From assembly GCA_029548365.1 (NCBI GenBank), contig JAKPNN010000002.1, forward strand, positions 124,001 through 188,000: 64,000 nucleotides of DNA. Direction: 5' to 3'. Positions 48,872 to 50,488 of the stretch are shown here, one piece after another; within the stretch, counting starts at the first letter, position 1, and each line of letters opens with the position of its first letter. Made by a program: the position numbers and the translations under genes. This DNA comes from Chloroflexota bacterium (lineage in GTDB: Bacteria > Chloroflexota > Anaerolineae > Anaerolineales > Anaerolineaceae). Under the pieces are notes generated by a model, which saw only the letters and a program-made list of their open reading frames with translations, did not search any database and was not told the DNA's origin.

Positions 48872-50488
48872 ATGAGCTCGAAGTACATTTTTATCACTGG
48901 CGGTGTATTAAGCTCAATCGGTAAGGGAGTCACCGCGGCGGCGATTGGTCGACTTTTAAAGGCGCGCGGCTTTTCAGTGGCGATCCAAAAACTGGATCCT
49001 TATATCAATGTAGACCCCGGGATGATGAGCCCCTACCAGCATGGCGAAGTGTTTGTTCTGGATGACGGTTCGGAAACTGACCTTGATTTGGGTCATTATG
49101 AACGTTTTGTCGATATCCGCTTGAGCAAAGTGTGTAATTTTACTTCCGGGCAGGTGTATGCCGAGGTGATCCAACGCGAGCGGCGCGGCGACTTTCTCGG
49201 AGGCACGATCCAGGTGATTCCCCACATCACCAACGAGATTAAACGTCGGGTCGCCCTGGTCGGTCAGGAGACCGGGGCTGACATTGTCCTGGTGGAGGTG
49301 GGCGGCACCGTGGGCGATATTGAGGGCCTGCCCTTCTTCGAGGCGATTCGGCAGGTACGTCTCGACCTGGGACGTGAGAATACCGCTTATATGCACGTGA
49401 CATGGCTGCCCCACATTGGCGCCACGGGCGAACTAAAAACCAAGCCCACCCAGCACTCCGTGCGGGAACTGCGCTCGATCGGCATCATCCCGGATGTGAT
49501 CGTTGCCCGGGCAGACTTACCCATCGGCACCGACCTGCAGGAAAAAATTGCCCTGTTCTGCGATGTTAAAGCCAGTGCAGTGATCCCGATTGTGACCACC
49601 CCCATCCTTTACGAAATCCCCTTAAGCATTGAAAAAACCGGCGTGGCAGATTTGTTGCTGAAACTGCTTGACCTGGAACCCAAACAACAGCCCGATTTGC
49701 AGGAATGGGAAAACCTGATCGAAAAGATCAAACAACGGAAACCGGTCGTCAAGGTCGCTCTGGTGGGCAAGTATGTTGAATTGCGTGATGCTTATATCAG
49801 CGCCAGGGAAGCGCTTAAACACGCAGCGATCGCTAACGACGTGGTAGTGGAAATCATCTGGGTGCAATCCTCTGACCTGAACAAGGACGACAGCCTGGAG
49901 GTTTTACGCCAGGTGGATGGCATCGTGGTACCCGGCGGTTTCGGCAGCCGCGGTATTGACGGTATGATCAGGGTGGCCAACTATGCCCGTGTGAACCAGG
50001 TGCCCTACCTGGGTTTGAGCCTGGGCATGCAGGTGATGGTGATCGATTTCGCGCGTGATGTGCTGCAACTGGAAACAGCCAATTCATCTGAATTTGACCC
50101 CAGCACTCCAGCGCCGGTAATCGACCAGATGACTGATCCACATTATTTAACTGGAAAAAGCGGTACCATGCGCCTGGGACTGTACCCCTGCCAACTGCAA
50201 ACGGGTACAATTGCACACCAGGCTTACCGGGCTGACCGGGTGGAAGAGCGGCATCGTAACCGGTTTGAGGTGAATAATGAATATCGCCCGGCGTTAGAAC
50301 AGGCTGGCATGATCTGTTCGGGGATCTCACCGGACGGGAAGCTGGTTGAAATTATCGAGATTAAAGATCATCCCTTCATGTTGGGGACGCAATTTCATCC
50401 CGAGTTTCTCTCAAGGCCAGACCGTCCTCATCCCTTGTTCGATGCCTTTATTCGGGCAGTCAATGAAAAAGCAGAAATTTTTCAGTGA
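48872..50488 (+). CDS. pyrG: CTP synthase with Ser in place of the glutaminase Cys
   Basis: 538 residues from ATG 48872 (GGAGG 4 bases upstream). The synthase domain is normal: [68 protein letters not shown], and the UTP-binding [17 protein letters not shown]. It converts UTP to CTP with ATP and ammonia. The C-terminal class I glutaminase domain keeps its His509 and Glu511 (QFHPEF), but the nucleophile position in the conserved GxCLGMQ elbow is AGC, Ser383 (GLSLGMQ). The neighbouring oxyanion region [14 protein letters not shown] is also changed from the usual RGxEGK. Glutamine use is therefore doubtful while ammonia use should remain. Confidence 0.93.

Follow-up and report, generated by a model that had tools for sequence, protein, structure and literature searches.

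A CTP synthase with serine in place of the catalytic cysteine and a probably vestigial glutaminase domain in an Anaerolineaceae lineage

The CTP synthase (PyrG) encoded in the window (the whole analysed stretch of 64,000 nucleotides from a Chloroflexota draft genome, here G000) carries Ser383 at the position of the catalytic cysteine, together with further departures in its glutaminase domain and a conserved synthase domain; the GMP synthetase (GuaA) of the same genome shows parallel damage, and matches to glutamine synthetase and to GlmS are missing. The explanation that we prefer, with a probability of roughly 0.8, is that this CTP synthase works with ammonia only and that its glutaminase is vestigial, in a lineage that is retreating from glutamine as a source of nitrogen.

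The CTP synthase of the window

The window protein is full length, contains both Pfam domains (CTP_synth_N and GATase) and scores far above the cut-off for the NCBIfam CTP synthase models (Table 1). Residue numbers count from the Met; the numbering of the reference translation (P0001), which starts one codon early, is one higher. Class I glutaminases have Cys at the elbow position of Ser383. The elbow of the window protein reads G-L-S-L-G-M-Q (codons GGT TTG AGC CTG GGC ATG CAG), and instead of the Cys-His-Glu triad of a glutamine-hydrolysing CTP synthase we find Ser383, His509 and Glu511. A serine at the nucleophile position, the retention of His509 and Glu511 and a normal synthase domain had all been claimed in a preliminary description of this DNA, and all are borne out by the AGC codon, the Pfam and NCBIfam matches and the alignment. 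The tunnel residues at the entry to the synthase domain (Pro54, His57 and Val60, as named in PMC9138612) are kept as well.

Table 1. Features of the window discussed in the text (positions of the window)
Feature	Position	Strand	Basis
Peptidase_C26 (class I GATase-fold), Cys elbow TICRGTQ intact	40664..41389	+	PF07722 217 bits; sequence L179
pyrG, CTP synthase (PyrG), 538 aa from Met	48872..50488	+	ORF; NF003792 790 bits, TIGR00337 768 bits
Synthase (amidoligase) domain, conserved	48881..49675	+	PF06418 397 bits, residues 5-269 of P0001; 1/99 conserved columns changed
Met51, replaces near-invariant Thr beside tunnel residues Pro54-His57-Val60	49022..49024	+	Thr in 158/164 rows
Glutaminase (class I GATase) domain, vestigial on our reading	49781..50455	+	PF00117 115 bits (cut-off 22.8); 5/68 conserved columns changed
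Ser383 (AGC), replaces catalytic Cys	50018..50020	+	Cys in 161/164 rows
Pro423, replaces Gln	50138..50140	+	Gln in 162/164 rows
Ser430, replaces Gly of GGTMRLG motif	50159..50161	+	Gly in 159/164 rows
Asn463, replaces His in ERHRHR	50258..50260	+	His in 163/164 rows
His509-Pro-Glu511, remaining part of triad, retained	50396..50404	+	Read from sequence and alignment

The alignment of 164 rows (156 distinct) combined relatives from the protein search, relatives from genome contigs (80 loci), clostridial genomes and further stretches; two duplicates (L001, L135), one sequence that is not a PyrG (L002) and rows of 480 aa or less were dropped before counting, and some genomes appear twice, from two collections. 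The nucleophile column holds Cys in 161 rows, Gly in two and Ser in one, so that Ser383 is unique among these rows. Among the columns conserved to at least 95%, the glutaminase domain of the window protein departs at five of 68 (Val311Ala, Cys383Ser, Gln423Pro, Gly430Ser and His463Asn) and the synthase half at one of 99 (Thr51Met), with a Fisher p of 0.041. A stricter yardstick, which counts only columns that are identical throughout the reference sequences, gives 12 of 115 and 7 of 167 (p 0.052), and the contrast between the two halves within this genome's PyrG is thus modest and borderline.

An altered oxyanion region had also been put forward in support of relaxed selection. This argument is weak and we have dropped it: GSRG is the consensus of the genus, only Glu363Asp and Lys365Met differ from the genus in this stretch, and Asp or Met occurs there in Cys-bearing enzymes too. 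The changes Val311Ala, Gln423Pro, Gly430Ser and His463Asn are more telling.

As to a second pyrG, for which the preliminary description had advised a search, none was found in the window genome, which is 71% complete (i.e. about 29% is missing); the sole other match, at 28 bits, is the C26-type protein at 40664-41389, which serves as an internal control and is not part of the system. No Rfam match was obtained between positions 40000 and 60000 of the window. Elsewhere in the window (8517-12074), a gene for a glycyl-radical enzyme adjoins that for an activating enzyme; several dehydratase and lyase models matched there, all below their cut-offs.

Related genomes and the GMP synthetase

A protein search of 61 genomes gave PyrG matches in 59, and among the fetched relatives, the window's own sequence aside, the elbow reads GLCLGMQ in 29 of 29. 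The genus comprises 16 genomes, 14 of them with a full PyrG match (G001 and G015, which are 66% and 76% complete, gave no full match in this search), and all 13 besides the window genome carry Cys. Ser383 is therefore not conserved in relatives, and Cys codons (TGC/TGT) in relatives are, taken literally, what the preliminary description had named as refuting its claim. Nevertheless, the corresponding domain is decayed in the sister genome too, and GuaA in both genomes, which shows that Ser383 is not an isolated error.

The sister is G014 (98% complete), grouped with the window genome at a support of 100, with G006 next at 97, in an 18-genome tree of the synthase domain of PyrG and the ATP-pyrophosphatase domain of GuaA. 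It has a single PyrG with a decayed glutaminase domain: Cys, His and Glu are kept, and among the lost residues are Glu in the SEF motif and, in PGGFG, the first Gly. In the 164-row alignment, 10 of 68 conserved columns are changed in its glutaminase domain versus none of 99 in its synthase domain (p 8e-5), and on the stricter yardstick 14 of 115 versus 3 of 167 (p 0.0005); for 12 other genus members compared on that yardstick the departures amount to 0-3 and 0-2, respectively. The overall branch lengths of the PyrG glutaminase domains of the two sisters are not clearly raised relative to all relatives, and the signal lies at conserved sites.

The same pattern is seen, more strongly, in the sequences of GuaA. 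A search of 26 genomes recovered this enzyme from every one, including all 16 of the genus, and its glutaminase triad is broken only in the window genome (elbow GIGSGM, i.e. Cys to Gly, and triad Glu to Gly) and in its sister (elbow GIADGM, i.e. Cys to Ala, and triad His to Tyr), being intact in the other 14 genus members; all 16 keep an intact ATP-pyrophosphatase motif SGGVDSS. Departures in the GuaA glutaminase domain number 17 of 60 in either sister versus 0-2 in 12 other genus members compared, and those in the ATP-pyrophosphatase domain 8 of 152 (window genome) and 10 of 152 (sister) versus 0-6; the contrast between the two domains of the same protein gives p 1.2e-5 and 5.9e-5, respectively. 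In line with this, the model for the glutaminase half (TIGR00888, cut-off 172.15) scores only 160.1 bits in the window genome and 139.2 bits in the sister, and that for the synthetase half (TIGR00884) passes in both, so neither protein combines a TIGR00888 score above cut-off with Cys-His-Glu, as a glutamine-hydrolysing GuaA would. The guaA gene (C15:24758-26308) and the pyrG gene of the window genome share one 202-kb contig, and mis-binning of a contig can therefore not explain the pair.

Not every change need mean relaxed selection, since in the window genome the domains outside the glutaminases have likewise accumulated more departures than in most genus members (PyrG synthase 7 of 167 versus 0-2, and the ATP-pyrophosphatase domain as given above), and part of the excess thus reflects faster evolution in general. 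For the pair of sisters, dN/dS (NG86) was about 0.07 for the PyrG synthase and about 0.13 for the PyrG glutaminase domain, and about 0.14 for the GuaA ATP-pyrophosphatase and about 0.26 for the GuaA glutaminase domain; for G006 versus G011 the corresponding values were about 0.08, 0.05, 0.09 and 0.10, all of them rough estimates because dS is near or above 1. The PyrG glutaminase domain, at a value well below 1, is still under some constraint. The PyrG and GuaA frames of both sisters contain no internal stop, and the decayed glutaminase domains probably persist because folding, assembly or the ammonia path requires them. Taken together, these sequence comparisons give good support to the earlier proposal of a lost or nearly lost glutaminase and use of ammonia, to which they add the decay in the sister's PyrG, the GuaA triads broken in both genomes and the lack of matches to glutamine synthetase and GlmS. 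The same evidence speaks for relaxed selection and against a sequencing slip, with the amendment that the relaxation appears to span glutamine use more widely than one enzyme; the main conclusion of the preliminary description holds and was too modest.

In a census of the class with a profile built on the active-site stretch, 352 of 396 genomes gave a match, but decayed and normal enzymes were not told apart, the PyrG of the window scoring 1.7e-35, within the normal range. A protein search of 30 census genomes (20 of the 44 unmatched, six weakly scoring and G031, G058, G281 and G409) gave matches in 11, and the nine readable elbows all have Cys. One further genome holds two equal-scoring CTP synthase active-site matches 638 bases apart on one strand (G093:C1:43425-44269), through duplication or an assembly artefact.

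Glutamine synthetase, GlmS and cases outside the genus

Glutamine synthetase (PF00120) was matched in 14 of the 16 genus genomes, among them drafts of 66-81% completeness, and the only two genomes where no match was found are the window genome (71% complete) and its sister (98%). Likewise, GlmS-type proteins (PF13522) were matched in seven of nine genus genomes tested, again with no match in only these two. Several of the PF13522 matches are GlmS-like by their start sequence and are of two kinds, one of the second kind (in G004) being named GlmS by NCBIfam. In G004 this gene sits between a rubrerythrin-like and a methyltransferase-like gene (names assigned by eye), and the same neighbours are present on the continuous contig C15 of the window genome (52736-53620 and 55135-55905), where the interval separating them contains no GlmS. 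For glutamine synthetase no deletion site could be located, as the neighbour genes of the relatives have no clear counterpart on C15. On the 202-kb window contig, a search by motif for GatCAB, GlnRS, Amt and others returned only one chance Amt-like string, in another open reading frame.

Loss of glutamine synthetase is insufficient as the sole cause of the decay, as six non-genus genomes without a match to it (G016, G029, G031, G032, G048 and G057) retain Cys in PyrG as well as a GuaA whose triad is intact. Two side observations concern genomes of this group: the PyrG of G032 (L023, on C25) has an intact triad and departs at 7 of 122 glutaminase and none of 167 synthase columns, and G031 encodes, beside its intact GuaA, a second GuaA (L219, G031:C1:2076903-2078411) in which Gly takes the nucleophile position and Phe replaces the triad His.

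The loss is not required either. The PyrG of Clostridiales bacterium DTU072 (L100, G445), the only PyrG match in that genome, has Cys changed to Gly and the triad His to Gln, and that of its relative G447 has Cys changed to Gly with His kept, whereas G446 keeps Cys; both G445 and G447 have glutamine synthetase. These genomes belong to a distant clade, and loss of the PyrG glutaminase seems, from the sequences, to have happened at least twice, the clostridial case being independent.

The GuaA of G445 has an intact triad. That of G447 (L176, on C22) has a heavily decayed glutaminase half (Gly as nucleophile, His-Pro-Glu lost) and an intact synthetase motif, and the one of G446 (L217, G446:C26:572-2089) contains one in-frame TGA in the synthetase half, for which an error, a pseudogene and recoding are candidates. 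On Tissierellia and Bacillota contigs, two Cys-bearing PyrG sequences (L075, L095) have Met at position 51, a changed equivalent of Leu109 and several other glutaminase-domain departures; they are possible early stages of the same decay. A homologue of the C-terminal glutaminase domain of CTP synthase on the minus strand of another genome (L233, G037:C40:15000-17000) has an in-frame TGA at the nucleophile (FVAT-stop-GGFQH) and is, by family description only, probably a member of the known selenoprotein family PRK06186.

Proposed mechanism, alternatives and known systems

From these observations we infer an enzyme devoid of glutaminase activity, ammonia as the donor in the cell, a route for its entry and an order of events. 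The window PyrG would make CTP from UTP, ATP and free ammonia, with its glutaminase lost and the domain retained as a scaffold. For CTP synthases that have been studied, outside ammonia has been proposed to enter by a vestibule at the GTP cleft; ammonia would probably take this route here as well, and the coupling between the two halves would be lost, the synthase being fed from solution. Studied CTP synthases can indeed use outside ammonia, and the E. coli G352P variant, whose glutamine-dependent activity was undetectable, was nearly fully active with NH4Cl (PMC9138612). The enzyme would be part of a wider retreat from the glutamine donor in the window genome and its sister, where no glutamine synthetase or GlmS was found and the glutaminases of both PyrG and GuaA are decayed.

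Position 51 may be of interest here. Thr51 is replaced in six of the 164 rows, namely in all three enzymes without Cys (Met, Met and Asn) and in three of the 161 with Cys, an association with a chance probability of 3e-5 when descent is ignored, for a column that was picked after seeing it and rows that are not independent. In the fly CTP synthase, which is numbered two below E. coli at this place, residues 50-58 help to form the tunnel, and GTP is contacted by the Phe50 backbone (PMC8325340); as the window protein shares the E. coli numbering at Pro54, His57 and Val60, position 51 neighbours this GTP contact. Mutation of Leu109 in E. coli uncouples the two halves (PMC9138612), and the equivalent residue is changed in L100, L075 and L095 and kept in the window PyrG. 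A fuller scenario, about which we are evenly balanced between belief and doubt, would be that the lineage of the window genome and its sister abandoned glutamine for nucleotides and amino sugars, both CTP and GMP now being made with free ammonia, that the PyrG and GuaA glutaminases died after the loss of glutamine synthetase and GlmS, that the PyrG change arose again in clostridia, and that the repeated change of Thr51 may be the sign of enzymes adjusted to draw ammonia from solution.

Ser383 might instead act as a serine nucleophile in a slow but real glutaminase, a reading for which the retained His509 and Glu511 and the remaining constraint on the domain can be cited. We consider this improbable, given that four other near-invariant residues of the domain are changed, that GuaA of the same genome lost both its Cys (to Gly) and its Glu, that the domain is decayed in the sister's PyrG too, and that the Cys-lacking carbamoyl-phosphate synthetase I of vertebrates needs free ammonia (PMC7657897). 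Glutamine could also still be the donor if a separate glutaminase protein supplied ammonia to PyrG in trans, as two-subunit amidotransferases are known in other families (PMC10526850, PMC3376133) and the C26-type protein is encoded nearby. C26-like matches are, however, also present in genus members with a normal PyrG (e.g. L113 and L115-L117; named as C26 only in the window genome), so that this protein is no specific replacement, and no glutamine synthetase was found in the window genome; supply in trans is accordingly very unlikely.

An error of sequencing, assembly or binning, which the Cys of all 13 other genus PyrG proteins and the draft state of the genome might suggest, would have to account for several changes within one open frame, for a different set of changes in the sister, for an altered GuaA on the same contig and for a C26-type relative 7.5 kb away that keeps its Cys, and we regard it as hardly credible. 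The same holds for the idea that the window pyrG is a decaying spare with an intact pyrG in the missing part of the genome: about 29% is indeed missing and just one PyrG was found, but the synthase domain is conserved, and in the sister, whose genome is 98% complete, the single PyrG likewise shows decay of the glutaminase domain, which makes a spare copy extremely unlikely.

If the reading of an ammonia-only enzyme is true, these proteins would be natural ammonia-only CTP synthases, and the lineage a bacterial one in which two amidotransferases of nucleotide synthesis turned to ammonia. They would provide natural enzymes for the old question of which roles, glutamine hydrolysis aside, fall to the glutaminase domain, to the GTP site and to the tunnel, and of where outside ammonia enters. 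An ecological prediction would be that these anaerobes require ammonium-rich surroundings. The model-assigned names 'glutamine-hydrolyzing CTP synthase' and 'glutamine-hydrolyzing GMP synthase' can mislead for such proteins. Among the open-licence PMC matches listed, no title or abstract beginning described a CTP synthase or GMP synthetase that naturally lacks its glutaminase, which does not establish priority.

Compared with the 'glutamine hydrolyzing CTP synthase' of TIGR00337, the window PyrG is alike in its full length, its two domains, its synthase half and its tunnel residues, and differs in having Ser for the catalytic Cys and in the other changed near-invariant residues of the glutaminase domain. 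Single-domain NAD synthetase depends on ammonia and not on glutamine (PMC3376133) and has no glutaminase domain, whereas that of the window PyrG is present and decayed. Blochmannia vafer resembles the lineage described here in having no glutamine synthetase, through a lineage-specific loss of glnA (PMC3017870), and differs in being an insect endosymbiont; decay of PyrG or GuaA is not reported in that article, from whose text the words amidotransferase and CTP are absent.

The nearest known parallel, by analogy, is vertebrate carbamoyl-phosphate synthetase I. The enzyme of terrestrial vertebrates has no catalytic Cys and needs free ammonia, and that of the bullfrog keeps the triad and has lost glutamine-binding residues (PMC7657897). 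A class I glutaminase-like domain kept without its catalytic Cys is likewise what we find in the window PyrG, for which the use of ammonia is read from sequence only, so that the terrestrial enzyme would correspond to the PyrG of the window genome (Cys lost) and the bullfrog enzyme to that of its sister (triad kept). Carbamoyl-phosphate synthetase I catalyses another reaction in another kingdom, and its switch to ammonia serves detoxification, whereas the one proposed here accompanies the loss of glutamine synthetase.
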